Of a stretch of 64,000 bases of DNA, positions 17,547 to 47,539 are shown one piece after another (within the stretch, counting starts at the first letter, position 1; the number at the start of each line of letters is the position of its first letter). A program made the position numbers and the translations under genes. Source of the stretch: Fundidesulfovibrio putealis DSM 16056 (GTDB taxonomy: Bacteria > Desulfobacterota > Desulfovibrionia > Desulfovibrionales > Desulfovibrionaceae); the NCBI RefSeq assembly GCF_000429325.1, contig NZ_KE386885.1, forward strand, positions 461,958 through 525,957. The letters are read 5' to 3'. The notes below the pieces were generated by a model that saw nothing but the letters and a program-made list of their open reading frames with translations, had not been told where the DNA came from and made no database searches.

Positions 17547-18320
17547 TCACGGCATTGACCACCTTGGCTCCAATTCTTTGATCATTCTGGAGGGAACCCC
17601 GCCGACCACCGTCCCGGCGGCCACGTCCCGGGTGACCACGGCTCCGGCCGCGACCACCGCGTTAGACCCCACGTTCACGCCACCCAGCACCACAGCCCCG
17701 GCTCCAATCCAGACGTTGTCACCAATGGTGATGGGCCTGCCGGTGTAGCCACGCTGCGTCGCAGGAAGGTCCAGGCGGGAGAAGTCGTGATCACCGGTGA
17801 CCAGCACCGCCTGAGGGCCGATAAGAACGTCGTTCCCCAGGAACATGCCACCCTGTCCCGAAGCCAGCACGGCGTTGACCCCCACCCAGCAGCGCGCCCC
17901 GGCGCGGATGCCCTCCCCCGGACGGGCATTGGACACGTAGGAGCACAGGTAGGCTCCGCGCATCACCCGCGTGCAGTCCCCCAGTTCGATCTCGGCCCTG
18001 GAGGCGTGCAGGCGGCTCAGTCGGTCCACGTAAACGCTGTGCCCCAACCGGATGTTGCCCATGTGCATGAACTCCGCACCGCTTTCGCATACTGGGGCGG
18101 CTGAGCCTCTCGCCAGGAGCGCGGAGTACAGCATTTTGCGGACAAGCATCCCCACCGGGCCGGGAATCCACCCCGACAACCACTGCGCGCCCTGTTCCAG
18201 TACATAGCGAGTCGGGCTAGCGGCGCGGGTATCAAGATATTTACGGACCGCCCCGGTCGAGGCCTTGCCCATATAATCGTTAAGACCCTCGCCGGGCCCC
18301 TTCTCTTGTCTCCGGGTCAT
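17547..18320 (-). CDS. Hexapeptide-repeat acyltransferase (left-handed beta-helix)
   Basis: 257 residues. An N-terminal helical extension of about 80 residues is followed by left-handed beta-helix repeats. VLIGPQAVLVTGDHDF and ITIGDNVWIGAGAVVLGGVNVG have the [LIV]-G-x-x-x-x hexapeptide rhythm of maltose-type acetyltransferases, and VVGGVPSRMIKEL is the usual C-terminal closing. It probably acetylates a sugar of the surface glycan in the cytoplasm. It is the last gene of the 22-17.5 kb - strand group, 1 nt after the GT2-aminotransferase fusion, and converges on the SIS gene across 228 nt. Confidence 0.85.
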   Translation of the reverse strand: MTRRQEKGPGEGLNDYMGKASTGAVRKYLDTRAASPTRYVLEQGAQWLSGWIPGPVGMLVRKMLYSALLARGSAAPVCESGAEFMHMGNIRLGHSVYVDRLSRLHASRAEIELGDCTRVMRGAYLCSYVSNARPGEGIRAGARCWVGVNAVLASGQGGMFLGNDVLIGPQAVLVTGDHDFSRLDLPATQRGYTGRPITIGDNVWIGAGAVVLGGVNVGSNAVVAAGAVVTRDVAAGTVVGGVPSRMIKELEPRWSMP

Positions 18321-18321
18321 G

Positions 18322-20388
18322 TCAACCTGCTACTTGGCGTTGCCAGTCCATGCAGGCCGCGACGACGCGCTCGGCAACGCGCATGCTCATCCCCGGGTGG
18401 CAGGGCAAGCTCACCACGTGCGACGCGGCTTCCTCCGCGATGCGGCAGGGACCACCAACACTGTTGGCAGCCAGATACGGGTGGCAGGTGAGCGCTAAAG
18501 GATAGTGGACGCCTGTGTCCACGCCGTGGACCTTAAGGTGGGCGCGAAAGCCGTCGCGGTCAATTGGACGCACGACGTAGAGATGGGGCACGCGTCCCTG
18601 GCCGCCGACCACAGGATTCAGGAACGCCAGCTCTCTGTCGTAGAGGGCGGCGATGCTGCGCCTGGTCTCGTTGTGCTCATCGAGTACGCGCAACCGCTCG
18701 GAAAGAAGCGCCGCCTGCAGTTCATCCAGCCGGGAATTGAATCCCTGCATCACGCACGCCCCTGTGGCGTCCTGTCCGTAGAACCGCATCATTCGCAGCT
18801 GCTCGGCCAGAGCCGCGTCGTCAGTGAGGATGGCCCCGCCGTCGCCGTAGCAGCCAAGATTCTTGGTCGGGTAGAAGCTGAACGCGGAGGCCGCGCCGAA
18901 GAGCCCGCAATGCGTGCTGTTATACCGTGAGCCCGTGGACTGGGCGCAATCCTCGACCAACGTGAGGTCAAAGCGGCGACAGACCTCCATGATTTCAGCC
19001 ATGGCGCAGGGCGTGCCGTACAGGTGCACGGGCACGACGGCGGTGGCCCCAAGGGATGCGGCGTGTTCGAGGCTGGCGGGGTCGAGAGTCAAGGTGTTTG
19101 CGTCCACGTCTGCGAAAACCGGCGTGCACCCTGCCCGCAGGACGGCAACAGCCGTCGGCGGAGCGGTCAGAGCGGGAATAACGACCTTGGCCCCTGGCGG
19201 CACTTTGGCCGCCCAAAGCGCGAGTGTGATTGCATCCGTACCATTGGCCACGCCAACGCAATGCCTGGCTTCTGCCCATGATGCGAATTCCCGTTCGAAA
19301 CGGGTGACGGCAGGGCCCAGAATGGTTTGAGGACTCTTAAGCACCCTGAACGCAGCATCCTTCAGCTCGCGTGAAACAGATGCAGAGACTCCGCGCATGT
19401 CGAAAAACGGTACCCGGCCGTCCTCGGACCAAGCGTCGCCAGAAGGACCGACGCGCTTTTCGATGATGAACAGGGGGCGTTTGCGAGTTTGCTCAAGGTT
19501 GATCCACAAGTATCCCCCGATCACGCCAAAGCCCAAAAACAGGGCGGTGATGTTCACCAGTTGGGAAAGCATGATTGAAGCCCACCCCGGTGAGGTGATG
19601 AGGCCCATGAACGACGCCAACAGAATGTAGGCCATCCCTACGAGGCTCAGGCAGGTGAGGACGAGCCCGATAACGCCGAACAGCTTCATGGGGAAACTGG
19701 AGAAGGCCACGATGGAGTGCAAGGCGTAGGAAATCTTGCGGCCCAGACCCCACATGCTCTTGCCGTGCTTACGCGGAGCCCTTTCGTACTCGATGATCGC
19801 CCTGTCGAAGCCAGCCCAGAGGATGAGGCCCACAAGGCTCGTTTTCTTTTCTCCGGACTCCAGGATCACCTTGATGACGGCTTTGTCGATGAGACAGAAG
19901 TCGAAGCCTCCCGGTGGCATCTCTTTGAGTGCGATGCGCCGGAAGAGCCAGTGGAAAGTCTCGGAAAACAAGCGTGTGAGGGGGGGGTCGTCCCGCTTGG
20001 CCCTGACGCATAGCACGACCCGCTTGCCTTCCCGCCAGCGGTCGACCATCTGGGGGATCGTTTCAGGCGGATCCTGCAGGTCTGCTGACAGAATGATGGC
20101 CGCGTCATGGTCGGCGATCTGGGTCAGTCCGGCCGCGATGGCCACGAATGACCCGTGGTTGCGCGACAAAAGAATCACTCGCACACGGGGATCGCGCTCG
20201 GCCAGCTCCTCGAGCACCGTCTGCGAATTGTCGGGGGAGCGGTCATTGACGAACTGAATCGTCAATTCAACGTTGGCCTTTTCCGAGGCTGAAATAATAC
20301 GCTCATAAAGTTCCAGCAGGCTCGCTTCATTGCCGTAAACAGGCACGACCACTGCTAGTCTGGGGCGTGCTTTCACGCTGCTGAACAT
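18322..20388 (-). CDS. GT2 glycosyltransferase fused to a DegT/DnrJ aminotransferase
   Basis: 688 residues made of two complete enzymes. Residues 1-315 are a DPM1/ArnC-like GT2 with VVVPVYGNEASL, VNDRSPDNS, LSADLQDPPE (DxD-like) and two membrane spans (237-260 and 276-295), ending RPLFIIEKRVG. This type transfers a sugar to polyprenyl phosphate. Residues about 326-688 are a sugar aminotransferase: NGTDAITLAL, the acid pair VEDCAQ and SFYPTKNLG with the PLP lysine Lys509. The chain crosses the junction without a stop or a start-like gap. Overlap with the upstream acetyltransferase is 16 nt. A cytoplasmic aminotransferase tethered to a lipid-sugar synthase could channel an amino sugar (inference). 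Confidence 0.88.
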   Translation of the reverse strand: MFSSVKARPRLAVVVPVYGNEASLLELYERIISASEKANVELTIQFVNDRSPDNSQTVLEELAERDPRVRVILLSRNHGSFVAIAAGLTQIADHDAAIILSADLQDPPETIPQMVDRWREGKRVVLCVRAKRDDPPLTRLFSETFHWLFRRIALKEMPPGGFDFCLIDKAVIKVILESGEKKTSLVGLILWAGFDRAIIEYERAPRKHGKSMWGLGRKISYALHSIVAFSSFPMKLFGVIGLVLTCLSLVGMAYILLASFMGLITSPGWASIMLSQLVNITALFLGFGVIGGYLWINLEQTRKRPLFIIEKRVGPSGDAWSEDGRVPFFDMRGVSASVSRELKDAAFRVLKSPQTILGPAVTRFEREFASWAEARHCVGVANGTDAITLALWAAKVPPGAKVVIPALTAPPTAVAVLRAGCTPVFADVDANTLTLDPASLEHAASLGATAVVPVHLYGTPCAMAEIMEVCRRFDLTLVEDCAQSTGSRYNSTHCGLFGAASAFSFYPTKNLGCYGDGGAILTDDAALAEQLRMMRFYGQDATGACVMQGFNSRLDELQAALLSERLRVLDEHNETRRSIAALYDRELAFLNPVVGGQGRVPHLYVVRPIDRDGFRAHLKVHGVDTGVHYPLALTCHPYLAANSVGGPCRIAEEAASHVVSLPCHPGMSMRVAERVVAACMDWQRQVAG

Positions 20389-20948
20389 TTCATTCCTTCT
20401 TCAGGAGCAAGCCCGTGCCAGTCTCCAGCCATGCAGGCCATGCCTTCCGCAGTTGATTTCAGTGGAGCGCCGCAGACGCATACCAGCCCGGCAGGGCGCG
20501 CGGGATTACCTTTGACAAGCGTAAAAGGTGCGACATCTCGTGTTACGACTGCACCTGCGGCCACCAGGGCAAAAGTTCCTATAGTCACGCCAGGAAGAAT
20601 TATCGCCCCCGCCCCGAGGGAGCATCCTCGCCCGAGTTGGGTCACTGGGTGCTCCACATACCGTTTGGAGCGGGGATACCGATCATTGGCAAAACTGACC
20701 CCAGGACCGATGAACACATCGTCCTGGACACGCAAGCCGTCATACAGGGCGACGAAATTCTTCACCGTCACCCTGTCGCCCAGAATCACGTCGTTCTCGA
20801 TGAACACGCCGTCGCAAATATTACAGTCCCGGCCTAGCCGCGCGCCGGGAAGAATGTGGGAGAATGCCCACACCCTGCACCCCTCGCCCACGGCGGATGA
20901 TTCGCAAATGCCCTGGGGATGGACGAAAATGCCGTGAGTGGCGTTCAC
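20373..20948 (-). CDS. WbpD/WlbB-like sugar N-acetyltransferase
   Basis: 191 residues of left-handed beta-helix: VGEGCRVWAFSHILPGARLG (20 residues), ICDGVFIENDVILGDRVTVK and LGAGAIILPGVTIG repeats. VAAGAVVTRDVAPFTLVKGNPAR is typical of enzymes that N-acetylate UDP-3-amino sugars or TDP-amino sugars. The C-terminus keeps a remnant zinc-ribbon-like CVCG...C. Genes of this type normally act right after a DegT aminotransferase, and here the fused aminotransferase lies directly downstream with a 16-nt overlap. It also overlaps the SDR gene upstream by 4 nt. Confidence 0.85.
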   Translation of the reverse strand: MNATHGIFVHPQGICESSAVGEGCRVWAFSHILPGARLGRDCNICDGVFIENDVILGDRVTVKNFVALYDGLRVQDDVFIGPGVSFANDRYPRSKRYVEHPVTQLGRGCSLGAGAIILPGVTIGTFALVAAGAVVTRDVAPFTLVKGNPARPAGLVCVCGAPLKSTAEGMACMAGDWHGLAPEEGMKCSAA

Positions 20949-21955
20949 CAGTAACGCTCTTTGTTCATGCGGTAATAATCCACGGTGCGTCGTATGCCTT
21001 CGGCGAGCTCCGTCTCCGGTTTCCAGCCCGTTACCTGATGTATTTTCGTAATGTCGGTATAAAAATCCCCGGGCTCCTGGGCTTTGCGTTCCGGCGAGAA
21101 CGGGGTGTGCTGGTAGCGTCCGGTTCCGGCGACATCAACGATCGTACGCGTTAGTTCCAGGAAGTTGGACGGCTGATCATGGCCCACGTTGTACACTTGG
21201 CCGCAGGCTTCGGGCAGCACCGCCAGACGCAATAGCGCCTCCACGCAGTCGTCGATATACAGGAAGTCACGTTTGATCAATCCGTCACCGAACACGGGGA
21301 TGGTTTGATCTTCAATGGCCAGACGGACAAACCAGTTGGCCACACCGAAACGGTTGTGGCGCATCTGTGCCCGTGGGCCGTAGATGTTGGTCAGACGGGT
21401 CAGTACCCCTTGGATGCCATGGTTGCGGCAATAGGACCCGATGATGTGCTCGGCGGCAAGAAGCGAAATTTCGTAGATGCCCTTGGGATCGGGTTTGGCC
21501 TCTTCCCCGGCAGGAAGCTTCAGCACAGAGCCGTATTGCCCGCGCGACCCGAGCTTGATCAGCTTGGCCGTGGGGTTGTGCTTGCGAAGGGCTTCCATGA
21601 TCACGGCCGTACCACGGATGTTGATGTCGATGTCAGGGAAGGGATCGCTCAGACTTTTCAGATGGCAAACCTGGGCCGCACTGTGAAAAATATAATCCTG
21701 CCCGCAAACCAACTGGCCCATGGCGTGCTCGTCGCGGATGTCGCAATAGTTGACCTGAACATCATCCTTTACGGGCTCAATGTTGAACAGGTTGCCGCCA
21801 TACTCTTCAACCATGGCGTCAGCCAGCAGGACGCGAGCGCCCATTTTCGCCAAGCGTATAGCCAGACTGGAGCCAAGAAAGCCCAGGCCTCCCAGGATTA
21901 AGACTTTCTTTCCTGAAAAAACAGAGGTTCTGCTTTGCCAAAAGTCCTGTGTCAT
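20945..21955 (-). CDS. NAD-dependent epimerase/dehydratase (extended SDR)
   Basis: 336 residues. VLILGGLGFLGSSLAIRL is the Gly-rich NAD-binding loop, and FLYIDDCVEALLRL and VYNVGHDQPSN are typical C-terminal epimerase blocks. The family usually has YxxxK in the active site; here the segment reads YEISLLAAEH, so the lysine position holds leucine. The enzyme may belong to a divergent subfamily or have altered chemistry. It is the first gene of an SDR, acetyltransferase, GT2-aminotransferase, acyltransferase operon that would make and mount an N-acetylated amino sugar. Its 5' side faces the gene-poor, IS-containing region. Confidence 0.85.
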   Translation of the reverse strand: MTQDFWQSRTSVFSGKKVLILGGLGFLGSSLAIRLAKMGARVLLADAMVEEYGGNLFNIEPVKDDVQVNYCDIRDEHAMGQLVCGQDYIFHSAAQVCHLKSLSDPFPDIDINIRGTAVIMEALRKHNPTAKLIKLGSRGQYGSVLKLPAGEEAKPDPKGIYEISLLAAEHIIGSYCRNHGIQGVLTRLTNIYGPRAQMRHNRFGVANWFVRLAIEDQTIPVFGDGLIKRDFLYIDDCVEALLRLAVLPEACGQVYNVGHDQPSNFLELTRTIVDVAGTGRYQHTPFSPERKAQEPGDFYTDITKIHQVTGWKPETELAEGIRRTVDYYRMNKERYW

Positions 21956-22991
21956 TTTGGATACGTCGCCTTCGTTAGGAAGTAACAGTATGAAATTCGC
22001 AGCTGTTTATAGCAATAATTTATACTGGATGAATAGCTCATGCAACCGGTTTGCCGGGCCGGACTGTGCTTGCCGATCAAGGGTTCTGGGGGCCGTTTCA
22101 ACCCGAGCCTGTTCCCGACAAAAAGGTCCAGTGGTGTTGTCCAGAGGATAATAGTCCCATAAAGCGGGGAACGCTCACCATCCAGGTGCTTAATGGCCGA
22201 GCCGTGCCTTCCGTAGATGATGTGCGAAGCAGAGTCGAGAGCAGAATGGTTCGCATGGCCATCTCCGGAGTTGAGAACGCCAGAGTGCACAAAACGCCCG
22301 CATGGCGTTAGACCGCCTTGACCCAAGGTTGTATATACCGCCTAGTTCGGAGATGTATTTCCGATCCACAAGCATCTGCGAAAGTTGAATTAATTGATTT
22401 ATAGGCTCTGTTGGGCGGTGAGGTTTCCCGACGCGGCACATCGACCTCATCGAATTCGTGCGCCAGGACGTATCGCCAAAGGCTGTTCGCTGGAAACGGT
22501 TCTCGACACGCAGCAGTCACGTCCCGCAGCGGTATGGTCGTCTCGGAGGGCTTTGTAGACAGTCCGGGTGACATATCATCGCCTGCGGCGACGAGGCAGA
22601 GCCAATTGAAACTCGCTTGGGACCGTATCCGCACGGTGAGCGTCGACAATTGGTAGGTGCTTCTGAGAATCCCAGGCAGCATGAATTGAGACACGGTAAC
22701 CATCCGATATGTCGTAGCTTACGAAGCCAATCGAGAGTAAAGGAGAGTGCCATTGTCCTGGGCAGAGATTACCCGACTTTTGGGCGATTGGGAAGGGTGT
22801 CGCGTAGGGACCGTCCTGCGTTTTGAGAGAGGGGTAAGGGAACCTCTGGCCGAGGTTTGGATCGAGCTTTTGCAGCTCAAGCGAAGGCAGATGCGTTGCT
22901 GGGGGAGGCGAACTTGCGGACAAGGTCCACGAAATCGAGGAGCGGTGGATTCGCGATCTACCACTTCTAGGCGTGGTAACGGAACTTCTGG
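21956..22991. other. Gene-poor, probably decayed region
   Basis: No open reading frame here has recognisable family motifs, a good ribosome site and an acceptable length. Short overlapping frames on both strands (for example 22051-22311 + and 22308-22703 -) have erratic composition. The stretch sits between the SDR start and a mutated insertion sequence, so it is most simply read as residue of lost genes plus the upstream control region of the 20.9-22 kb gene. Confidence 0.5.
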
Positions 22992-24089
22992 TAATCCCCT
23001 GACAAAAGGTTGTTCAGAAAAGTATAATTTTCTCTCAAGCTTAGGCGAGAAGTTTTACATGAAGACATCCGGCTACTCCGACAGTCAGATCATGAGCGCC
23101 CTGAATCAAGCCGAGAGCGGCATCGCCGTGCCGGAACTTTGCCGAGAACACGGCATGAGTAGCGCCACGTTTACAGGTCGCGGGCAAAATACGGTGACAT
23201 GGATGCTTCCCTCGTGGCTCGGATGAGGGGACTTGAGGAGGAAACCCCTGACTCAAGCGCATGTACGCCAAAGCCCAGAAGAAGGCCGATGTTCTCCGGG
23301 AGGCGCTTGGATAAAGTAGCAAGGTCATCTCGCCGCCGTGAGATGGCCAAAGACGCCGTGAAGGGAAAGGCCCTGACCATCAGACGAGCCTGCGATGCAT
23401 ATGGCATCAGCCTGACGTGCTACCGTTATGAGTCCAAGCTGTCTGACGAGATCGAATTCGTGGCCGACTGGTTGGTCGGCTGACTGCCATCCAGCGCAAC
23501 TGAGGCTTCGGGCTCTGGTTCATGTATCTGCGAAACGTGAAACGGTACGGCTGGAACCACAAACGGGTGTACAGGGTCTATTTCGAGCTGGAACTGAACC
23601 TTCGTATCAAGCCCAAGAAACACTTGGTGCGGAAGAATCCGGAGCCGCTGGTCCAGCGTGAGGCTGCAAACCCGGCGTGGTCCATGGACTTCATACACGA
23701 CCAGTTGCATGACGGGCGAAGCTATCGCCTGTTGAACATGATCGATGACTTCAACCGGGAGGGCTTGGCCATCGAAGGGGACTTCCCGCTGCCATCAGAA
23801 CGTGTCATCCAGAGTTCCTGGAACAGGTCATGGGGTGGCGGAAAACCGAATACCATCCGGTGTGACAACGGCCCTGAGTATGTCAGCTGTCACCTGCAAG
23901 TCTGGGCCGTGAAGAACAGGATACGCATCGGCTGCATTCAGCCTGGCAAGCTGCAGCAAAACGCCTACGTGGAACGCTACAACAACGAACGGCCCAACAT
24001 AGGCATCAGCGGCATCATTCCGAGGCAGAAACTGAGAACGGTTGCATAGCCCAACTTTTCCGACTGTCAAAAAAGGGGGGAGGGGATTA
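22992..24089 (+). mobile_element. Degraded IS3-family insertion sequence
   Basis: A mutated IS3-family transposase (IS407-like type, as far as I can judge) fills 23059-24049. Possible ends are an inverted pair: TAATCCCCT at 22992-23000 and its exact complement AGGGGATTA at 24081-24089. The interval is about 1.1 kb, shorter than a full element, in line with an internal deletion in the transposase 3' part. I could not identify a target-site duplication. Confidence 0.7.
23059..24049 (+). pseudogene. IS3-family transposase orfA/orfB remnant, multiply frameshifted
   Basis: The reading starts KTSGYSDSQIMSALNQAESG, PELCREHGMSSATF, typical of the OrfA helix-turn-helix, then loses frame near 23172. 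It continues in another frame as KYGDMDASLVARM, breaks again near 23245, and resumes as KRMYAKAQKKADVLREALG. OrfB follows with MAKDAVKGKALTIRRACDAYG, another frameshift and a TGG-to-TGA-like stop near 23500. [34 protein letters not shown] and [10 protein letters not shown] follow. The DDE residues are still visible ([19 protein letters not shown]). About 40 codons are missing between VERYN and NERPNIG. It cannot encode an active transposase. Confidence 0.9.
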
Positions 24090-24206: not shown

Positions 24207-24799
24207 ATGATACAATCACCCCCAGTTAAGGAATTGTCCGAGGACCGCAAGCGTACTGTCTTCGGAACTATCGTATTATCCTTGGCTCTTTTCTGCAGCA
24301 TTACACTGGCTTATGACAATTTCTGGAATTCCGTGTTGTGCGCGTTCTATTTTCCATTCGAGGACAAGGACACTGGAAGGACCAAATTTTTGTTCTGCAG
24401 CAACGTCGAACAGGTTCTCGACGGCGACAACAGCCGTAATCTCGCCGACAACGCCGAATCCGGTGCAGACTGGAGAGTCTTTTCCCCAGCATCGCCCGAG
24501 AGCCGGCAGTGCTGCGGGTCACAGTCAAAAAAGACCGGGACGTGGTGTTTTTCTACCCCCGCCTGGAAGGCGCGGACAGCTCTGTCGTTGTTTACGCAGA
24601 AGATGGTCCCGGCCTGCGGCGCCTGTTTGCGCTCCAGGGGAAGAAGGGGTTGTGGACGGAAATGGGACGACAATATGTTCTTGATCTGCGTAGTGCGCCG
24701 TACGGATGGGTCCGCAAGGATGTAGACGTGAAACTCACCATCGTTCTGACCGGAAAATGGAGCCAGGTTTGGCATCTCGGATCAGCCGTTCTTTTTTAG
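24207..24799 (+). pseudogene. Single-pass membrane protein with YPR-type domain, frameshifted
   Basis: Frame 1 starts at the ATG at 24207. It gives a short cytoplasmic N-terminus, one membrane span (FGTIVLSLALFCSITLAY) and FLFCSNVEQ, then GADWRVFSPASPE. Around 24490-24508 the homology jumps to another frame: VLRVTVKKDRDVVFFYPRL, LWTEMGRQYVLDL, LTGKWSQVWHLGSAVLF, ending at 24799. The intact paralogue at 45143-45715 reads straight through the same points (CTNVRQ, GWKMYTAADPE, TVCKDRSQMIFYPRV), which locates the break. So this is either a true one-base indel or a sequencing error. The 3' end overlaps the next gene by 43 nt. Confidence 0.75.
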
Positions 24800-26424
24800 C
24801 CGCGCCGGCCTCTCTGGCGGGTTGGATCCTGGTGGCCGCAGGGATATGCGTCCTTCCGTGGGTTGTGCTGTGCCTGCTCTTGAGGATCTACCTCGGGGCA
24901 TCCTTGGCGGACGCCATACCTGGGGGAGGGGATTTTATTCTATACTGGCATGAGATTGCCACTTATGCAGCCGTGGGTTTCAAGGGCGGCTACTACGGCT
25001 TCGAAGAACTGGTTGCTCCAGCGTCACGTCTTGGCACGGGCGGATTCGGCGCGCACAGTGCTTTTTTCCCCATGCTATTCGGTTCGGTGGGTGTATTGCT
25101 GGGGTGGGGGCCGTCTTCAGGCACGTTCTACGGCCTCGGAGCGGTGAGCATCGGGGTCGCTGGGTTCGTTCTGCTAACTTGGCGGGACCGCAGGCTCCAC
25201 CTCCTGGCAGGGGCTCTTCTGCTGACGAATGTCTACATTTACTGCTATTTGGCAAAATGTAGCCCCGAAGGTATTCACGTCGCTTGCGCTTTCCTGCTCG
25301 CAGGGCTTTTCATCCGCTACTTCGAGGCTCCCTCTCGCGCTAGAACGGCCTGGTTCACCGCGCTCTACGGCGCTATCATGGTGGCCTCTCTGATCAGGTA
25401 CAGTTGGGGCCTTGCCTTTGTGCCTCTGTTTTTCTCGTTCGATGACCTGGTCCGGCGGCCTACGCTACGGACCTGCGTTCGAGCCGCAGCCTGTTTGTCC
25501 AGCATCGCCGCAGTTTATTTTGTCTATAACCTGTTTATGGCTCCATATCCATATGAGCCGTTTACTGGATCCATTTTTGGCTTGCCCGTTTATGTTCAGG
25601 CCTTCAAGGGAAATTTCGCTCCTTTGCTGCGGCTCGTCGCCGACAACTTCCGAAGCCTAGTCCCTTCTCAACAGCAAAACCTTCCCAGCAGCATTCTCTA
25701 TGTCTATCTGGTCTATATGGCCATTACGACCGTGACCGTATTCCTCCGCCTTGTCGACCGGTCCCAGCCCGATCCTCTCCGGCGTGAGCGCCTTAAGTTC
25801 GTGTTGTTTTTCATGCTCGCAACCATGGTCCCCCTGCTGGTCCTATGTTTTTGCTACTACTATATCTCTGTCGGTGGCATCGGGGCAAAGATCCTCCTTC
25901 CGTCATTTCTTATGAGCTATCTGATAACAGCCCGCTACATGCCCGTGCCCTCGGTTCCGGCGGTCCTTGCCATCTTCCTTGGGCTGATGCCCATGGGCCT
26001 GCAGACGTTTCAGTCCTGGAATCTACCCGACTATGACCCTGCCTCGACCTCCGTCTCCAGGGCCGAGGCGGGTCTGGTCCGGAAGACAATGGGGCTTCAC
26101 GCCGCCTACCAACCGGGTGACGAGCCCTGGTGCAATACCCTGGTGACCCTGGACAACGACCTGCCGTCCGCTTACATGGGAGTGCCGCCCGGCATCGCTA
26201 TACAGGTGCTGCGGTACGATCCAGCCGCCCCAAATCCGTACGGATACTCAGCTTGGCATGCGGAAACGGGCATCCTTTCGCGCTGGATCGTCACAAAGAA
26301 TTCGCAGTTGAGCGCCGCGCTTTCTCAACATAACAGACTCGTTTTTCTTGGGGATACCCCTCTTGGGAAGCTCTACCGGAACGACTCTTCGCCCTGTGGA
26401 GAACGGGCGAAAGGTCATCCTTAG
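24757..26424 (+). CDS. GT-C-like polytopic membrane protein
   Basis: 555 residues with about 10-12 spans. The ATG at 24757 is chosen because it leads straight into basic residues and the first span (LAGWILVAAGICVLPWVVLCLLL). The first extracytoplasmic loop has GGGDFILYWHEIATY, with Asp and Glu in the place where GT-C glycosyltransferases keep their catalytic acids. The C-terminal 120 residues are extracytoplasmic. It overlaps the frameshifted YPR-domain gene by 43 nt, pairing a GT-C-like enzyme with a small anchor protein as seen again at 43-45.7 kb. The specificity is unknown. Confidence 0.72.
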   Translation: MEPGLASRISRSFLAAPASLAGWILVAAGICVLPWVVLCLLLRIYLGASLADAIPGGGDFILYWHEIATYAAVGFKGGYYGFEELVAPASRLGTGGFGAHSAFFPMLFGSVGVLLGWGPSSGTFYGLGAVSIGVAGFVLLTWRDRRLHLLAGALLLTNVYIYCYLAKCSPEGIHVACAFLLAGLFIRYFEAPSRARTAWFTALYGAIMVASLIRYSWGLAFVPLFFSFDDLVRRPTLRTCVRAAACLSSIAAVYFVYNLFMAPYPYEPFTGSIFGLPVYVQAFKGNFAPLLRLVADNFRSLVPSQQQNLPSSILYVYLVYMAITTVTVFLRLVDRSQPDPLRRERLKFVLFFMLATMVPLLVLCFCYYYISVGGIGAKILLPSFLMSYLITARYMPVPSVPAVLAIFLGLMPMGLQTFQSWNLPDYDPASTSVSRAEAGLVRKTMGLHAAYQPGDEPWCNTLVTLDNDLPSAYMGVPPGIAIQVLRYDPAAPNPYGYSAWHAETGILSRWIVTKNSQLSAALSQHNRLVFLGDTPLGKLYRNDSSPCGERAKGHP

Positions 26425-29324: not shown

Positions 29325-30749
29325 TCAGTTGGTGCCATCTCCCGTACCGACGACCACCGCCTGGACAAAGAAGTCCCGCCATCCAAATTGGTAGTCCACC
29401 AGCCGCAGGTCGGCCCGGTTAAGGAGGGCTTGCGCGTGCTCCCGGCCTTTTAGCAGTGTGATTTCGTCCGGATGGAGCTTGCCGGTCCGTCCGAAATGTT
29501 TCAACACCACGTGGACGGCGTCGAGCACGGCCACACTGGTGGCACGGGAATGTGGCCAGAACATGACCACCTTGCCGTCGCTACGCAGTACACGTCGGAA
29601 TTCTCGGAGGATGGCCTCGATGTCCGATTCGGAGAAATGTTCCATGACCCCCAGGTTGTAGACGCCGTCGAAGGAGGCATCCGCGAACGGAAGCTTGAAG
29701 ATGTTTCCCTGCGCCACGTGTCGGTTCGTAGGATTGTTTTGTGCATAAAGTCGCAGGGCGGCAGCGGAAAGGTCCACGGCCGTAATTTCGTAGTCGCCAG
29801 GCAGGGTGGCATCGGCCTGGCCCGATCCGCAGCCGGCATGGAGAAGACGGCCCCCCCACGGAAAAGCGCGGCGCAATGCATAAACAAGATTCGGGCGGAT
29901 CACCAGCAAGCGGTAGGCGGCGGCAACCATGTCGTAGGCGAGCAGAGATGGGTGCGCCTTGCGGCTCCAATATGCATCCCATGCGGAACCGGGCCCCCCG
30001 GCGCGTGCCGGGGCGCGGGAAAGCCGGAAACGTTCCGGGTGGAGCAGCGACGCCAGGGTCAGCCAGAAAATATATGAGCCACCGCCGAAAATATCCTTCA
30101 AGGTCAGTTTGGAACTACCGTAAGTCCGGGCTGGAAGGACAATGGGAATCTCGTTGATCTGCAGCCCGTTTCGAGCCAGGACAAACAAGCTTTCAAAGAA
30201 AAACGAATAGCTCCTCGAAGGAACGAGCGAAAAGAGATCCCTGTCAATCCGGTGCAGGTCGTAGGCCCGGAAAGCGCCGCTGGCATCTTGGGGCAGGCCG
30301 AGCAGACGAGTCGTCAAGAAATGCCCGAAAAGCGTCAGACTCCGGCGTACCAGGTTCCACCCCGGCAAGCTTCCTCGTTTGAGATAGCGCGACCCCACGG
30401 CCACATCATAGCCCTCCAGGGCAGCCAAGAGCCGGGGGATATCCTTGGGATCGTGGGTAAAGTCGCAGTCAAGGCTAATCAGGACGTCGTAACCCCCGTC
30501 ATAGGCCCAGGCGATACCGATTTGGTGGGCCGACCCGATGCCCTGTTTGCCCGAGCGGTGGATGACGGACATTCGAGGGATTTGCGCAGCGAGCCGGTCC
30601 AGGGTCTCGCCAGTGCGGTCCGGGGAGTTGTCGTCCAGAAACAGGATATCAGCGTCTAGATCTAGCTCGCTTATCTCCCGTGCCATGCGTTCCACGTTAC
30701 CGCGTTCGTTGTACGTGGGGATGAAGATGAGAAGACGGGAGTGGCTCAA
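29325..30749 (-). CDS. GT2 polyprenyl-phosphate glycosyltransferase fused to a SAM methyltransferase
   Basis: 474 residues. Residues 1-240 are a DPM1-like GT2: FIPTYNERGNV, FLDDNSPDRTGE, LDCDFTHDP (DxD) and ASGAFRAYDL. This class makes polyprenyl-phosphate-mannose or -glucose, and this copy lacks the membrane spans found in ArnC-type enzymes. Residues about 296-474 are a class I methyltransferase: LLHAGCGSGQADATLP (motif I), VDLSAAAL, NLGVMEHFSE and LRSDGKVVMFWP. It starts with TTG, overlapping the TGA of the upstream SDR gene. The fusion suggests that sugar transfer to lipid and methylation act on the same product (inference). Confidence 0.87.
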   Translation of the reverse strand: MSHSRLLIFIPTYNERGNVERMAREISELDLDADILFLDDNSPDRTGETLDRLAAQIPRMSVIHRSGKQGIGSAHQIGIAWAYDGGYDVLISLDCDFTHDPKDIPRLLAALEGYDVAVGSRYLKRGSLPGWNLVRRSLTLFGHFLTTRLLGLPQDASGAFRAYDLHRIDRDLFSLVPSRSYSFFFESLFVLARNGLQINEIPIVLPARTYGSSKLTLKDIFGGGSYIFWLTLASLLHPERFRLSRAPARAGGPGSAWDAYWSRKAHPSLLAYDMVAAAYRLLVIRPNLVYALRRAFPWGGRLLHAGCGSGQADATLPGDYEITAVDLSAAALRLYAQNNPTNRHVAQGNIFKLPFADASFDGVYNLGVMEHFSESDIEAILREFRRVLRSDGKVVMFWPHSRATSVAVLDAVHVVLKHFGRTGKLHPDEITLLKGREHAQALLNRADLRLVDYQFGWRDFFVQAVVVGTGDGTN

Positions 30750-33492: not shown

Positions 33493-34527
33493 TCAGGAGA
33501 AATCCTGAGTTGACAGTTTGTTATCGCTGCTTGGAGCCGCCTCAGTGCATTTCGATCGGAAAAATGAGAAGCTCAGATGCAGCTGACGCATGGCTCCCAG
33601 GCCCAATATGGAATTAAACAGAATTTGCACAGCCTGTACCACCAAAGACAGCGGAATTGCCGCCTGCATGGGCAGGTCGAGCATGGAGAAAGACAGCACT
33701 GTACTGGCCTGATGGATGCCGATACTGCCCGGCGCCGATGGGAGGAGCCCTCCAAAGTTCATGATGGCGAACGTGAAATAGGCGTCGATAGCCGAGCCAG
33801 GCACGGAGAAAGCACGGAAGCCAGCCCAGACGGTGAGCCCCTCGATGAGCCAGACAATAAGGCTCAGGGCTGCGAACCCGGTGAACTCGCGGTCCGGCCG
33901 GATGAAGAAGAGAGAATCCTGGAGGCCCGCCACAATATGCGCGGCCTTTGATCCGAGGCTCCCGGGCAGCCTGGAAACCAGGGCGCGAAACCACCCAAGC
34001 ATGCCCGGAAACGCTCTAGCGGCCACAAGTCCGGCAAGAGCACCGATGAACAGCGCTCCCGCGCCGAAGGAAATGTCCCGCATGGTGCTCCGGAAAGTAG
34101 GTGCCAGATTCACGGCCAAGCCCGCAACCTGAAGGATCAGGAGCAGGGCCAGGCCGTCGAAGATTCGCTCCACGGCGACCGAAGTCAGGCCGAAGAGGAA
34201 CCGAACGTCGCAGCACCTGGAGAGAATCACCGCCCTGGCTACGTCACCGCCCTTGGCCGGTAGGAGGTTGTTGGCGAAATTTCCCACCAGGATGATGTTG
34301 CCGCAGTCCTTCATCGAGACCTTTCTGGCCGGGGCGAGCAGGCACTGCCATCGCCAGGCCCGAAGGATAAGACCGGCAGCGAACAGGCCTACCATGGGAA
34401 ACATCCATGCAGAGTCCATACCGGCGAAGCTCAGAGCCAGATCTTCCAACCCCACAGAGAGCACGATCCAGCCCAGGAGACCAAGGCTCAGAACCATTCC
34501 GAGCCAAGTCTTCCAACGTCTATTCAT
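33493..34527 (-). CDS. LPG-synthase-type flippase-like membrane protein (UPF0104)
   Basis: 344 residues from the ATG at 34527, which follows a GAGAGGCC ribosome site; an upstream in-frame start at 34662 would add an Arg-rich tail and is rejected. Seven or eight spans with RAWRWQCLLAP, NNLLPAKGGDVARAVIL, ERIFDGLALLLILQ and GGLLPSAPGSIGIHQA match the transmembrane half of lysylphosphatidylglycerol synthase. In polysaccharide clusters such proteins are thought to move polyprenyl-phosphate-linked sugars across the membrane. That would suit the lipid-linked donors made by the nearby GT2 enzymes (inference). Confidence 0.85.
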   Translation of the reverse strand: MNRRWKTWLGMVLSLGLLGWIVLSVGLEDLALSFAGMDSAWMFPMVGLFAAGLILRAWRWQCLLAPARKVSMKDCGNIILVGNFANNLLPAKGGDVARAVILSRCCDVRFLFGLTSVAVERIFDGLALLLILQVAGLAVNLAPTFRSTMRDISFGAGALFIGALAGLVAARAFPGMLGWFRALVSRLPGSLGSKAAHIVAGLQDSLFFIRPDREFTGFAALSLIVWLIEGLTVWAGFRAFSVPGSAIDAYFTFAIMNFGGLLPSAPGSIGIHQASTVLSFSMLDLPMQAAIPLSLVVQAVQILFNSILGLGAMRQLHLSFSFFRSKCTEAAPSSDNKLSTQDFS

Positions 34528-34677
34528 ATGGCCTCTCGTTATGTTGCCGCATTGCGGCCGCCGTGCAACTCCCCTGACGGACATGCGTTGTGCCGTAAAA
34601 GCCCTTTTTCTGGCCCCGTGCGAGGGCACAGCGAAAACCAAAGCGGTGCGTAATCGCGGCATAAGGAGGTGGCTTGG

Positions 34678-43078: not shown

Positions 43079-45109
43079 TCAATAGGCCGCCCGGTCGCCC
43101 GTTTTTGGGGCATAGACGGAAATGGTATACTTCTGACCATCCTTGGCACTGAAGCACTCGGTGTCGAGGCAGTCGGGTTGAGGCAAACGGCCGATCAGGA
43201 GATAGTCGTTCTCGACGCTCAGCCCATGCTGCTGCAAGACTGCAAGTATATCCGGCGTCAGCGGCTCATTGATGAGAAGAAACGAAGACCGGATTTCCCC
43301 GGATGCTGCCAGGGCCAGCATCCGGGAGTTGAAATCCGGGCCGAGTATGCCAGCCGGATAGTAGGTTGGCGTTCCCGGAGACCGGCCGCCCAGGAGGTAG
43401 ACCGGGCCGCCCAGGCCGTAGAAGCCGAGGATGTTGTCTCCGGGCCTGAATCCTGCTTGGCGTAACATCTCATTGAGGGTGTTGTAAAATTTTGCCTGTT
43501 CGTTTGTGAACAGGAGCCCCTTGCTGCGGTGCAGCCCCGGAACAGGAGTAGTGTAGCGCAGCAGAGGAGGGGTCGCGCATTCGGACGTAGGAACAATCAG
43601 GTTTCGAGACTCGCCGGAAGCCAGTTCCTTGTCCAGGCATAACTGGTAGGACATCCATGTGGTGTATTTATATTGCTGTACGATGAGAAACAGACAAAGA
43701 ACCACGACATGGAAAGTGCGGTCGCCTGTCGCTGGCCGCTTCAGAAGAAAGAGGCCGAACAGGGCCAGGGCCACGAAACTCCAACTGCCCTCTTGAATGT
43801 AGTGCATAAGGGCTTGGGAACTGCCGGCGGCCATGAAAAATGGGATGGCGGCCAGAACAATTGCCACGAAACCCACAGGAGCAGACCAGGCTTGATCGGT
43901 CGTGCGGTTTATGAGCTGGTCAAGCAGGCAGGCCGCGAAGAAGAGAAGCACATACTCGGCCAGAGGGAGGCCATAGTCGCTGAGCACGCCATAGCGCTGG
44001 GGGAAAAACGGCAAGGCGAGGCTTTCGATCAGGCTTGGATCGATAGTCGCGACAGCCAGGACACAGACCACGGTCACCCAAAGCGGCGTAGTCACCACAA
44101 CCGGCAAAAGCAGCCGGGTCGGCCTGACCAGAGTTCCCTGGCAGAGGTGTCGCCACCGACCGGAAATGGCTGTCAGAAGGGCGGTCAAGAAGAGCAAGGG
44201 CCAATAGTGCAGGAAAAACGATCCGAGAAACGAGACAAACTCAATGAATTGATTGGAGAGAACCTGCACGGGACTCAGTTTGGCAGACCCGTAGGCCCCG
44301 CCAAATCGTATCTTCGACGGCTCAATGGCGGCCAGGATGTCTTTGAGCGGAGAAATGAAGATAAGGAGAAAACCCAGGGCCGCCAGGAAGCCGAAGACAA
44401 AAAGGCCTACGCCTGATAGTTTTCGCCCCTTGGGGAGAAAATAAAGGACATAGAGGGCAAAAAAGGCCAACAGTCCACCCACGCATGGTATCTTGATCAG
44501 AAGCTGGAAGCCGCTCAAGATGCCTAAACAAACGGGGAGCGTCTTGAAGGAAGGCCTGTCTCCGCCCATCGCCCAGAGATACAGGCACGCTGCAAGCATG
44601 TAAATCCAAGAAGTTAGGTCATGGTGCCCCAAAGGCCAGAACTGAATGAGGATGGCGTTGCCGAGAAAACAAGACAGAAGGAGTGTTGTGGTCCAGGAAA
44701 GGATCTCCCATCCGTTTGGGTTGGCACCGCCGTCCCCCCGCTGCGAGACGAAGCGCCACAGGGTCAGGGCCAACGGGAGTGTCAGCAGAACGGACAAGGC
44801 GTATCTATACAGCCGGTAGTCGGTGATGCCCGGCTCAATCCACCAGAGGAGCTTGGGGATAAGCGGCACCGCGATGGTCATCAATTCATTGAACGTGCCC
44901 TGCTGGTAGCTGAGCATGTAGTGAGCGGTATCCCAGGTGATGGTGGCTGCCGAGCTTAAATGCAGCAAGACGGCAATATCGAGAAGGCAAAATAAGACCA
45001 CCGCCACATGAACGATGCTGGTACTATTTAAGCGCCAGGAAATCCCTTCATGAATAATATTGCAGGAGTGTCCTGCGGCAGCATCACGGCTTTTTTCATT
45101 AACGGTCAT
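43079..45109 (-). CDS. GT-C-like polytopic membrane protein
   Basis: 676 residues with about 12 spans starting SIVHVAVVLFCLLDIAVLLHL. The first outer loop SSAATITWDTAHYMLSYQQG has an Asp in GT-C position. A soluble extracytoplasmic C-terminal domain of 200 residues follows (GVGDNILGFYGLGGPVYLLGG-like turns, EPLTPDILAVLQQHGLSV). It sits 33 nt after the intact YPR-domain anchor gene and forms a triplet with it and the GT-C/GspG-like fusion. It probably acts on a polyprenyl-phosphate sugar; the specificity is unknown. Confidence 0.72.
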   Translation of the reverse strand: MTVNEKSRDAAAGHSCNIIHEGISWRLNSTSIVHVAVVLFCLLDIAVLLHLSSAATITWDTAHYMLSYQQGTFNELMTIAVPLIPKLLWWIEPGITDYRLYRYALSVLLTLPLALTLWRFVSQRGDGGANPNGWEILSWTTTLLLSCFLGNAILIQFWPLGHHDLTSWIYMLAACLYLWAMGGDRPSFKTLPVCLGILSGFQLLIKIPCVGGLLAFFALYVLYFLPKGRKLSGVGLFVFGFLAALGFLLIFISPLKDILAAIEPSKIRFGGAYGSAKLSPVQVLSNQFIEFVSFLGSFFLHYWPLLFLTALLTAISGRWRHLCQGTLVRPTRLLLPVVVTTPLWVTVVCVLAVATIDPSLIESLALPFFPQRYGVLSDYGLPLAEYVLLFFAACLLDQLINRTTDQAWSAPVGFVAIVLAAIPFFMAAGSSQALMHYIQEGSWSFVALALFGLFLLKRPATGDRTFHVVVLCLFLIVQQYKYTTWMSYQLCLDKELASGESRNLIVPTSECATPPLLRYTTPVPGLHRSKGLLFTNEQAKFYNTLNEMLRQAGFRPGDNILGFYGLGGPVYLLGGRSPGTPTYYPAGILGPDFNSRMLALAASGEIRSSFLLINEPLTPDILAVLQQHGLSVENDYLLIGRLPQPDCLDTECFSAKDGQKYTISVYAPKTGDRAAY

Positions 45110-45142
45110 GGTTTCTGTTCGTTGTTGTATAAATTCGAAATG

Positions 45143-45715
45143 TTAGAAGAAAACGCCGTCGTCTTTGAACCAGAGTTGGGCCCATTTCCCTTGAAGAACG
45201 ACGACCAGTGGAATGTCGGCGTCTTTGTCCAGATCACCGGGACCAATGCAGGACAGATCAAGGGCATACTGCATCCCGACCTCAGTCCATCCCTGGCCCC
45301 GGGCACCTATATGGAAGAGCTTCCGCTTATGCTGGCCGTCTTGAGAATAGACGGTGACCATGCTTTGCGGTTGGGAAACCCTGGGGTAGAAAATCATCTG
45401 CGATCGATCCTTGCAGACAGTCAGGAAAATGTATGCGTTTTTTTCAGGATCGGCTGCGGTGTACATTTTCCATCCCTCGATATCCGTTGGCTCGACTTTG
45501 ACATTGTAAAACTTTGCATGCTCTATGCGTTGACGGACGTTGGTGCACGAGAAAAAGTATGATTTCTGCAAGCATTGGTTCGTGGGGGCAAACGCTCTCA
45601 GGCCGCACCGGAGGCTGGGGGCCATGGCGTTAAAGGCCAACGAAAGTAGGATTGCCGTTGCAATAATGATGATAGTCGATCCGCGAATGCTGCGTTTGAG
45701 CATATTTACGGTCAC
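45143..45715 (-). CDS. Single-pass membrane protein with YPR-type C-terminal domain
   Basis: 190 residues. One span at 12-30 (GSTIIIIATAILLSLAF), then an outer segment FFSCTNVRQ and the domain 81-190: GWKMYTAADPE, VCKDRSQMIFYPRV, YSQDGQHKRKLF, GWTEVGMQYALDL, LQGKWAQLWF. The same ordered blocks occur at the C-terminus of the SGNH hydrolase (2.7-4.1 kb), the frameshifted 24.2 kb gene and the 49.3 kb protein. The strand-rich look suggests a beta-sandwich, perhaps glycan-binding (inference). It starts with GTG at the last base of the upstream stop region; an ATG lies 12 nt further in. Confidence 0.75.
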   Translation of the reverse strand: MTVNMLKRSIRGSTIIIIATAILLSLAFNAMAPSLRCGLRAFAPTNQCLQKSYFFSCTNVRQRIEHAKFYNVKVEPTDIEGWKMYTAADPEKNAYIFLTVCKDRSQMIFYPRVSQPQSMVTVYSQDGQHKRKLFHIGARGQGWTEVGMQYALDLSCIGPGDLDKDADIPLVVVLQGKWAQLWFKDDGVFF

Positions 45716-47539
45716 TTATGGACGGAGAGAGAGGGTGATATCGTCATCGTTGTACATGATGCCGTCAACTCCGGCGGATCGAATGGATTCCGCATTTTCG
45801 TCCAGGCCGTACGGGCTTCCCCATGGATCGTGGATCAGGCGTGTTTCCAGGACAAGCCGGCCGTCTTCATTGAATGGAGACTGTCCTGCTGCGGCCATCC
45901 AGATGGCGACAAGGGCTTTTCTCCAGTTTGCGTAGCAGACATCGTCCTCATTGTCGTTCCGCGAATTGTTCAGGCTGCGGCATGGGCATTCCGAACAACT
46001 GTTTCCTGTGATGGAGGGCAGTGGCAGTCCAGTTTTTATTTTCGCTATTTGAACGATCTGTGAGAGAAATACTAGGTCCTTTTTGGCCGTTCCTATGTTG
46101 ATTTGCGTCAAGTGTCTCTCTGCAAGGAGTAGTCCGGTGATCAAGATGGCGGCAAGAATGGTGGCAGGTAGGCGATGCGCGTATATATATTTTAAAAGAT
46201 GAAGCCCGAGTGCTATTGTGCGTTTGTATGTCAGGATGATGATGTTGAATGACAGGAATAAGAAGCCACAGACTAATGCCATCCGTCCGGCAAGGATGTA
46301 ATTGGGATGGGGGATGGTTAATGTCGGGGGAATGCTGGCGATGATAAGCATCCATATGGGAAAGAAAGACTTGAGAAACGAATAGTATTTCCCCCGGGAA
46401 AAATAAAAATGAGTGAGCGATAAGGCCAGGAAAAATACAACCAGCTTGACTCCTCCCATCGTCTCTATCGCCTCGACATGTTTGCGAAATGTTGTTTTGA
46501 AGAAAAACGCTGGATCGTTAGTCAGGATCCTTAGATACAAAATGCGGATGGTGGGCATGTACTTTTCGCTTGCAAAGGTGGCCTGAGGGTCCTCTTGCAA
46601 CGCGTGCTCAGCGCCAACGGAATCGTCATATTTGATGCCATATTTGTTCGGGTAATGTCCAAGTCCGATGTAGAGGGAGTGCCACATTCCGTGAACGCCC
46701 TGGGCAATGGCATGATTCGTACCGGTGACAACTTGGTGAAGACGCAGTATTTCCCGGAAGGTGAAGGATGGAATTGTAGTTGCAGAAAAGAAAATTAGAG
46801 AGAATACAAGCATTCTGAAAGACGGTTTGACAGGGCTTGTGGCATTATTGGGTGTTTTATTTATATAAAAGTGCAGAATCCTGAACCCTTCGAATAAGAT
46901 GATCAGGGCAATGGCACCTTGGGCCACCAGTGCCGCATCCTGCCGCAATAACCCAAGTGTTCCCGTCATCAGTCCAAGAAAAACCGTGAGAAGTGGAAGA
47001 GAGCGTTTTCGTAGTTTATCCTCAAACCAGAGGGAAGCAACCGAAATATAGGTGATGATAACTGCCAGCGCAGGAACCCAATAGCATAAGTATGACCAGT
47101 ATCCGTAGAGATTTTGCCATAAAACTGGCCCCAATGTGAATGATGTGCATATGGAAATAAGCGTAAGCGCGACCAGGACTATCGAGTCTGAAGCTGCGCA
47201 ACAGGCAGCGAGTACAAGGGCGTAGAGTGCGAATTGGATATAGTATACGATGTGCCAGTCAGCTACGTAAGATGGATCGAAAAATGTTTTGACGATCCAA
47301 ATATACATGACTGCCAAGGCACCTAACCCGGGGTCGTCATAAAGGTCAGCATTGATGGAGGTGCCTTCACGCACCTGCATGAAGTGACCGGCGTTCATCA
47401 TGTCGATGAGCCGATACATATGGTTGAAGCGGGTGTTGTCAGAATATCCCGTAAGATGTGGATAATGTTGGAAAAGAGCAGTTAGAGCAATGATGGATAG
47501 GGTGAAATAGAGGAGAGATTTTGCAATGGGCTTGGTCAT
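45716..47539 (-). CDS. GT-C-like membrane protein fused to Cys-rich and GspG-like domain
   Basis: 607 residues from the ATG at 47539, which follows GGGGGT; the start at 47671 would add 44 unlikely residues. 10-12 spans follow a first outer loop with DNTRFNHMYRLIDMM and INADLYDDPGLGALAV. After the last span the chain ends with a 99-residue module (509-607): ITGNSCSECPC, VCYANWRKAL, DPWGSPYGLDEN, IRSAGVDGIMYNDDDITL. This matches block for block the outer part of the 34.7 kb protein and the C-terminus of pseudopilin GspG. The gene is A+T-richer than its neighbours, which hints at transfer. It is first in the 47.5-43 kb operon. Confidence 0.75.
   Translation of the reverse strand: MTKPIAKSLLYFTLSIIALTALFQHYPHLTGYSDNTRFNHMYRLIDMMNAGHFMQVREGTSINADLYDDPGLGALAVMYIWIVKTFFDPSYVADWHIVYYIQFALYALVLAACCAASDSIVLVALTLISICTSFTLGPVLWQNLYGYWSYLCYWVPALAVIITYISVASLWFEDKLRKRSLPLLTVFLGLMTGTLGLLRQDAALVAQGAIALIILFEGFRILHFYINKTPNNATSPVKPSFRMLVFSLIFFSATTIPSFTFREILRLHQVVTGTNHAIAQGVHGMWHSLYIGLGHYPNKYGIKYDDSVGAEHALQEDPQATFASEKYMPTIRILYLRILTNDPAFFFKTTFRKHVEAIETMGGVKLVVFFLALSLTHFYFSRGKYYSFLKSFFPIWMLIIASIPPTLTIPHPNYILAGRMALVCGFLFLSFNIIILTYKRTIALGLHLLKYIYAHRLPATILAAILITGLLLAERHLTQINIGTAKKDLVFLSQIVQIAKIKTGLPLPSITGNSCSECPCRSLNNSRNDNEDDVCYANWRKALVAIWMAAAGQSPFNEDGRLVLETRLIHDPWGSPYGLDENAESIRSAGVDGIMYNDDDITLSLRP

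Follow-up and report, generated by a model that had tools for sequence, protein, structure and literature searches.

In a 64,000-nucleotide (nt) stretch of the Fundidesulfovibrio putealis DSM 16056 genome (contig NZ_KE386885.1, positions 461,958 to 525,957; hereafter the window), we analyzed a gene that joins a family 2 glycosyltransferase (GT2) to a DegT-type aminotransferase in a single open reading frame (ORF). Our analysis confirmed that this fusion is a genuine and rare domain arrangement of known enzyme types, which occurs in a small clade of Desulfovibrionaceae. We propose, with a probability of about two in three, that it encodes a bifunctional enzyme responsible for the C-3 amination and the lipid loading of a 3-acetamido sugar, which would then be flipped across the membrane and used by a GT-C transferase for a surface glycan. 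If so, the fusion would pair a particular aminotransferase with a particular lipid-sugar synthase, thus offering a "Rosetta stone" for the donors of a hard-to-predict GT2 family, and would provide an example of membrane-fixed amino-sugar synthesis that can be tested.

An unbroken GT2-DegT fusion in six genomes

The fusion ORF starts with an ATG and encodes 688 residues without internal stop codons. Pfam detected Glycos_transf_2 (PF00535) at residues 13-145 (76.9 bits; cut-off, 23.3) and DegT_DnrJ_EryC1 (PF01041) at residues 341-678 (299.7 bits; cut-off, 19.8), the latter spanning profile positions 6-358 of 360. Similarly, a search against solved structures divided the protein into residues 7-310, matching GtrB sll0501, and residues 321-686, matching DesV. 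Hydropathy analysis revealed hydrophobic stretches at residues 225-267 and 271-298, with five and six lysine or arginine residues in their flanks and none in the loop between them; from this charge pattern we infer that both ends of the helix pair, and hence both halves, would lie on the cytosolic side. These data are in good agreement with the initial annotation, made from the letters alone, which had described a GT2 with both membrane spans continuing unbroken into a complete DegT domain and an acetyltransferase gene overlapping it by 16 nt, a length that we confirmed from ORF 20373-20948.

The lysine binding pyridoxal 5'-phosphate (PLP) had been correctly numbered as Lys509. It lies within YPTK 506-509 (motif YPTKNLG) and is kept in all six fused proteins of our alignment. 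ADLQDPPE, which we take to be the acidic metal motif of polyprenyl-phosphate GT2s, is present in the same six proteins and in both stand-alone GT2 proteins aligned. As had been proposed, both active sites thus look intact by their conserved residues. An AlphaFold2 model of the fusion (18 rows; mean predicted local distance difference test score [pLDDT], 85.5; predicted template modeling score [pTM], 0.57) showed good confidence for both domains, with pLDDT values below 50 at residues 303-309 and 313-322. The linker (Table 1), in line with a junction anticipated near 19410-19440, falls in a region (residues 312-330) where identity between the window protein and those of UBA7700, G003, and G002 is 0.42-0.47. 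An NCBIfam scan of the fusion, the adjacent short-chain dehydrogenase/reductase (SDR), and both adjacent acetyltransferases gave, among the families listed, no match attaining its cut-off, and we therefore assign no exact name to these proteins.

Among 288 family genomes, six (G000-G004 and G357) were found to carry the fusion. The five further copies share 56-80% identity with the window protein. Three more genomes of the family encode the GT2 half alone (64-66% identity). The junction is in frame and free of stops in all six fused genes, and the linker sequence differs among copies. Substitution rates (NG86 method), computed for four pairs that do not include G004 and to be read as rough where synonymous divergence (dS) exceeds 1, gave nonsynonymous (dN) and synonymous values of 0.113/1.369 for GT2 and 0.150/1.411 for DegT (window-UBA7700), 0.011/0.108 and 0.025/0.137 (G003-G001), 0.175/1.135 and 0.274/1.273 (window-G003), and 0.300/1.084 and 0.365/1.208 (window-G002). 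With dN/dS ratios of 0.08-0.28 for the GT2 half and 0.11-0.30 for the DegT half, both halves are, by these estimates, under purifying selection, the DegT half slightly less tightly. A frameshift or an assembly join in the linker had been named as what could explain the fusion away. The same in-frame fusion in six genomes with differing linker letters, together with purifying selection on both halves, makes such an artefact, a stop lost between two genes, or a chance ORF practically negligible; nor are the halves always separated by a stop at this point, as had also been considered.

Separate genes, which the initial annotation had called the usual arrangement, are common elsewhere. G011 and G691 carry unfused SDR, acetyltransferase, DegT, and GT2 genes in this order; in G055, G193, and Phyllobacterium, genes for DegT, GT2, and an acetyltransferase/FdtA protein lie close together; and in Azospirillum, GT2, WxcM-like, and DegT genes are annotated in a row. 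Furthermore, arnB and arnC are neighbors in 14 of the 20 plasmid matches listed.

Wider searches added no further case. A short-pattern scan of 84,980 species genomes, which detects close relatives only, returned 16 loci, two of them fused (L038 and L039) and both already counted. No fusion beyond the window's own was found in 395 genomes of the phylum at 1e-85, and none in 398 genomes of the phylum of G727 at 1e-78, thresholds at which distant fusions could escape. Viral contigs contained no relative. Plasmid records gave 121 matches with at least 80% coverage, of which 20 were listed and three inspected closely (H1, H2, and the GT2-only H14), so that the rest could hold fusions; phage records gave two matches with at least 80% coverage. 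Three candidates were rejected: an apparent single match in the Verrucomicrobia locus L050 (residues 7-571) consists of two matches in different frames, the Phyllobacterium match (H2, 96% covered) of overlapping but separate DegT and GT2 ORFs in the opposite order, and a possible read-through in G691 (residues 5-437 with two TGA codons) of the four separate genes mentioned above. A search of the open-access literature found no paper describing a GT2-DegT fusion.

Predicted activities of the fusion and its cassette

With phmmer against solved structures, the GT2 half matched GtrB sll0501 best (172 bits, residues 7-310) and also ArnC (114-117 bits, residues 9 to 317-323). Like the GtrB, ArnC, and DPMS enzymes, it consists of a GT2 domain followed by two membrane helices; unlike them, it continues after the second helix into a full aminotransferase, and it does not reach the ArnC and PgfS equivalog cut-offs. 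The GT2 half would thus be a polyprenyl-phosphate sugar transferase of the GtrB/ArnC/DPMS type, loading its sugar onto a lipid carrier.

The DegT half scored 253-256 bits with DesV, 232 bits with QdtB, and 230 bits with WbpE, compared to 165 bits with perosamine synthase and 130.5 bits with ArnB. We take DesV and WbpE to be C-3 aminotransferases and ArnB to be a C-4 enzyme, and the structure titles of QdtB, WlaRG, and Pcryo_0616 name 3-amino-sugar enzymes. With the fusion model as query, the DegT half took up the Foldseek and VIA-align lists, and the structural comparison therefore concerns the DegT fold. The first enzyme that we take to act at C-4 appeared at rank 25 of 50 in Foldseek. In VIA-align, where rows within 1 Z unit count as tied, the first 15 rows ranged from Z 51.7 to 48.5, with DesV at 51.4; perosamine synthase came next at 48.1 (root mean square deviation, 1.8; 354 aligned residues), and ArnB had 46.6. 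The DegT half shares 32-41% identity (Z about 49-51) with DesV, QdtB, WlaRG, and WbpE, and like them it has the whole domain and the PLP lysine. In contrast to these enzymes, whose solved members are separate chains, it would be tethered to the membrane via the GT2 half. Overall, it appears most similar to C-3 amino-sugar aminotransferases and would probably act at C-3.

In the window, the fusion is part of a tightly packed cassette on the minus strand, in which the SDR gene overlaps an acetyltransferase gene by 4 nt, the latter overlaps the fusion, and a second acetyltransferase gene follows after a gap of 1 nt. We examined 11 such loci (6 fused and 5 unfused); since they were picked by similarity to the fusion, the fractions describe the cassette and not bacteria at large. 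SDR, acetyltransferase, and GT2 are present in all of them, and five of the other ten cassettes also encode an orthologue of the second acetyltransferase with an identity of 64% or higher. DegT is fused in six loci, encoded by a separate gene upstream of GT2 in two (G011 and G691), and absent beside GT2 in three (G030, G062, and G362), although G062 has a DegT of 31% identity about 6 kb away.

The solved structures nearest to the overlapping acetyltransferase are 7s43 (151.8 bits), the WxcM-like 4mzu (150.2 bits), and 3mqg (116.7 bits). Scores were lower with QdtC (55 bits), PerB (32 bits), and VioB (27 bits), the last two of which we assume to be C-4 acetyltransferases. This protein is therefore nearest to enzymes acting on nucleotide-bound 3-amino sugars and is probably 3-N-acetylating. 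The combination of a probable C-3-type aminotransferase and a probable 3-N-acetyltransferase resembles the FdtA/FdtB/FdtC and QdtA/QdtB/QdtC routes to dTDP-3-acetamido sugars. However, FdtA was found neither in the window cassette nor in its genome, and an SDR without the catalytic lysine stands in its place. The Wbp/Wlb route to UDP-GlcNAc3NAcA differs in that its 3-dehydrogenase, of the Gfo/Idh/MocA type, has no match in this genome.

The cassette SDR keeps the tyrosine but has lost the lysine of YxxxK, presumably the catalytic pair of classical SDRs, in all 11 orthologues (leucine in nine, threonine in one, and asparagine in one). As a control, all six other SDRs aligned from the same genome keep both residues; they derive from eight RmlB-family matches, from which the cassette SDR itself and L111 were left out. 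Eight more distant SDRs in the alignment carry asparagine at the tyrosine position, and five SDRs of this distant kind adjoin a DegT gene (G056, G024, G052, L041, and L042). Among 12 loci fetched for the distant kind, DegT was adjacent in only three (G056, G024, and G052), which weighs against a regular association; it was next door in none of the five loci with usable gene calls (L087, L090, L091, L094, and L096), and L086, L088, L089, and L093 were poorly called.

Known sources of 3-keto sugars include FdtA, Gfo/Idh/MocA enzymes, and other routes such as DesII-type radical enzymes, and our search covered the first two. The FdtA domain was found in none of the 11 cassette stretches at an E value of 1e-8. 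FdtA was not found in four of the six fusion genomes, and the remaining two, G004 and G357, each encode one away from the cassette. The F. putealis genome (99.99% complete) encodes an RmlB above its cut-off and has no Gfo/Idh/MocA (PF01408) match. The argument from a missing ketone source is strongest for this genome because Gfo/Idh/MocA proteins do occur in each of the other five genomes with the fusion. A lysine-less SDR in a genome in which two known 3-keto sources were not found points to a possible new 3-amino-sugar enzyme: the cassette SDR may supply the 3-keto sugar by an undescribed reaction, and this odd SDR may be the more novel part of the system. As a tentative and rather doubtful extension, a membrane-tethered 3-acetamido line could exist in which the SDR replaces FdtA, feeding the fusion by a novel reaction, either a non-redox 3,4-ketoisomerization or an unusual oxidation. 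A second kind of locus was observed in G030 and G004 (L112, 5512-10437; L113, 4245-10266), with genes for GT2, FdtA, one further protein, a Gfo/Idh/MocA-type protein, and a DegT of 41% identity one after another; the L113 GT2 forms the C-terminal portion of a 613-residue ORF.

ORF 24706-26424 gave no Pfam hit; eight of the other ten cassettes encode relatives that share 24-36% identity with it. Its model is weak (mean pLDDT, 61). The best Foldseek row was ArnT bound to undecaprenyl phosphate (E value, 0.037; probability, 0.99), and no row fell below 0.001. VIA-align rows 1-31 (Z 12.7 to 6.5) comprise Pmt4, oligosaccharyltransferases, AftA/B/D, ALG9/12, PglB, ArnT, and DPY19, all of which we take to be GT-C enzymes, and unrelated helical proteins follow. 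Z values below 13 are not decisive alone for helical proteins, and it is because of the uniformity of this list that we consider the protein a probable GT-C transferase. Beside the GT-C gene, several cassettes encode a protein of 180-188 residues (L054, 5160-5717; L058, 12065-12631; L059, 13895-14437), for which no Pfam family exceeded its cut-off in the three tested. A candidate flippase (LPG_synthase_TM) is weakly linked, as only G001 and G003 have its homologue within the cassette.

Table 1. Window coordinates of the fusion, its parts, and associated genes
Feature	Coordinates	Strand	Evidence
GT2-DegT fusion gene	18322..20388	-	Single ORF; PF00535 and PF01041; same fusion in five other genomes
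GT2 domain (residues 1-312), polyprenyl-phosphate sugar synthase type	19453..20388	-	phmmer; alignment of six fused and two stand-alone forms
Predicted membrane helix 1 (residues 232-260)	19609..19695	-	AlphaFold2 model; hydropathy
Predicted membrane helix 2 (residues 269-303)	19480..19584	-	AlphaFold2 model; hydropathy
Linker (residues 313-325)	19414..19452	-	Low pLDDT; low local identity
DegT aminotransferase domain (residues 326-688)	18325..19413	-	PF01041; DesV, QdtB, and WbpE among best matches
Codon of PLP-binding Lys509	18862..18864	-	Residue numbering; conserved in 6/6 fused proteins
Hexapeptide N-acetyltransferase, probably 3-N-acetylating	20373..20948	-	Hexapep; 16-nt overlap with fusion; 11/11 cassettes
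Extended SDR, catalytic Lys replaced by Leu	20945..21955	-	Epimerase and GDP_Man_Dehyd; 4-nt overlap with acetyltransferase
Second hexapeptide acetyltransferase, WcaF-like but under curated cut-off	17547..18320	-	Starts after 1-nt gap
Probable GT-C fold periplasmic glycosyltransferase	24706..26424	+	Relatives in 8/10 other cassettes; low-confidence model
LPG_synthase_TM protein, candidate flippase, weakly linked	33493..34662	-	PF03706

Order of the fused steps and competing explanations

In the pathway that we favor, the C-terminal DegT half would aminate a nucleotide-bound 3-keto sugar at C-3, and the overlapping acetyltransferase would acetylate the resulting amine while the sugar is still nucleotide bound, yielding a nucleoside diphosphate (NDP)-3-acetamido sugar. 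On the cytosolic side of the membrane, the N-terminal GT2 half would then transfer the 3-acetamido sugar from the nucleotide onto undecaprenyl phosphate. Once flipped across the membrane, the lipid-linked sugar would be used in the periplasm by the GT-C transferase of the cassette, decorating a surface glycan. The fusion itself would tie amino-sugar synthesis to the membrane and set a 1:1 ratio of the two enzymes. The gene neighborhoods of G055, G193, Phyllobacterium, and Azospirillum, along with the unfused cassettes of G011 and G691, lend support to this pathway.

The initial annotation had suggested that the amino sugar could be passed directly to the carrier. As worded, this is not supported: because an N-acetyltransferase nearest to enzymes of nucleotide-bound 3-amino sugars is present in all 11 cassettes, fused or not, the acetylation step probably lies between amination and lipid loading, so that the two fused reactions are probably not consecutive. 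A single chain with a short linker would suit a hand-off of the free 3-amino sugar from DegT to GT2 and on to the lipid, and the acetyltransferase, being a separate chain, could act later or on another sugar. We nevertheless regard such consecutive steps as unlikely, since, besides the constant acetyltransferase, the model, with a pTM of 0.57 and low confidence in the linker, does not indicate that the active sites are in fixed contact. A precedent argues in the same direction: in the Arn pathway, as described in PMC12650200, the bifunctional ArnA performs steps 2 and 4 and ArnB performs step 3, and fused enzymes therefore need not be consecutive. Additionally, a fusion survey (PMC4921024) reports one study in which fusing as such did not promote channelling. 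Because of these two observations, tethering and matched amounts would be the modest reading of the fusion, with channelling as a possibility.

Several points weigh against the proposed pathway. C-3 and C-4 DegT enzymes share one fold, and since structural similarity by itself does not discriminate between them (DesV, Z 51.4; perosamine synthase, Z 48.1), the C-3 call rests mainly on sequence score; moreover, the top structural rows 7b0d, 4qgr, 7n63, and 3uwc have no stated amino position. FdtA, which usually makes the ketone in routes of this kind, has no match in the F. putealis genome. Three Solidesulfovibrio cassettes hold SDR, acetyltransferase, and GT2 genes without an adjacent DegT, and DegT is thus not strictly bound to the cassette GT2. 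In a quick DegT tree (46 rows, 4 duplicates of 50 dropped; 15 loci repeating genes of other loci had been left out before both this tree and the GT2 tree), the six fused DegTs form one clade with a Shimodaira-Hasegawa-like approximate likelihood ratio test (SH-aLRT) support of 100, which joins ten stand-alone DegTs of the family (SH-aLRT, 86) and not the DegTs of the unfused cassettes. Hence, the fused DegT may have been recruited and could have another substrate. Finally, we know of no activity for any fused member.

Some of these points would favor mere co-expression or tethering, with DegT acting in a different sugar branch and the GT2 half loading an unrelated sugar: GT2 lacks an adjacent DegT in 3 of 11 cassettes, and the fused DegT lineage differs from that of the unfused cassettes. 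Against this, unfused DegT, acetyltransferase, and GT2 genes stand side by side in G011, G691, G055, G193, Azospirillum, and Phyllobacterium, and the genomes without an adjacent DegT could provide one in trans. The latter is partly borne out, as G030 has a DegT close to FdtA, G062 has a DegT on a contig other than that of its FdtA, and G362 has an FdtA. We consider this explanation improbable.

Very unlikely, in our view, is that DegT is a C-4 aminotransferase of an Arn-like pathway, producing a 4-amino sugar on undecaprenyl phosphate. The DegT half is indeed related to ArnB (130.5 bits) and the GT2 half to ArnC (117 bits), and the Arn pathway also combines an aminotransferase with a polyprenyl-phosphate GT2. 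However, the C-3 enzymes score much higher (DesV, 253 bits; QdtB, 232 bits), and the equivalog cut-offs are far missed (ArnB, 169.4 of 631 bits; ArnC, 133.2 of 529 bits). Furthermore, ArnB and ArnC are separate, Arn's own fusion being ArnA, and the product is a C-4 amino arabinose made via formylation, whereas the amine here is probably at C-3 and acetylated. A scan of the cassette proteins revealed no formyltransferase: the SDR falls into SDR families, and both small transferases fall into hexapeptide families. These competing explanations overlap partly, and their probabilities need not add up to one.

History of the fusion and neighboring genes

A quick GT2 tree (19 rows after 5 duplicates of 24 had been dropped) groups the six fused GT2s with the three stand-alone GT2s of Solidesulfovibrio (SH-aLRT, 99); the link of this set to the GT2s of unfused cassettes and to FdtA-associated GT2s is an open fork. 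The tree does not resolve the branching between the stand-alone GT2s of Solidesulfovibrio and the fusion of G004, and it is therefore compatible both with a loss of DegT in Solidesulfovibrio and with DegT never having been present there. The gene order in the unfused cassettes of G011 and G691 is DegT then GT2, the reverse of the fusion. Given this reversed order and a fused DegT clade apart from the unfused-cassette DegTs, the fusion probably arose once, when a recruited DegT became joined downstream of GT2.

The window protein shares 80% identity with the fusion of UBA7700, which belongs to another genus, and 56-71% with copies from its own genus. The G+C content of the SDR, acetyltransferase, and fusion genes is 0.56-0.61, against 0.68 in the genes to the left and 0.64 in those to the right; that of the second acetyltransferase (0.65) is not lowered. 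In addition, the Solidesulfovibrio carbinolicus cassette with a stand-alone GT2 (L065, NZ_CP026539.1) lies on plasmid pDCAR1. The UBA7700 identity, the lower G+C content of three genes, and the plasmid copy suggest that the cassette moves between lineages. A recombinase gene and an IS5 transposase lie close to the cassette on pDCAR1.

In the window, the region that separates the SDR gene from the GT-C gene contains probable remains of an insertion element (22747-24049, plus strand), comprising a 175-residue ORF with an rve integrase core (23522-24049, plus strand) and an adjoining ORF (22747-23226). Another fusion is encoded at 29325-30749 (minus strand), a protein of 474 residues with a GT2 domain (residues 8-161) followed by a methyltransferase domain (residues 303-395). 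A second DegT gene is located at 47831-49054, and just downstream of it lie three consecutive ORFs of 676, 190, and 651 residues without Pfam hits (43079-47671, minus strand).

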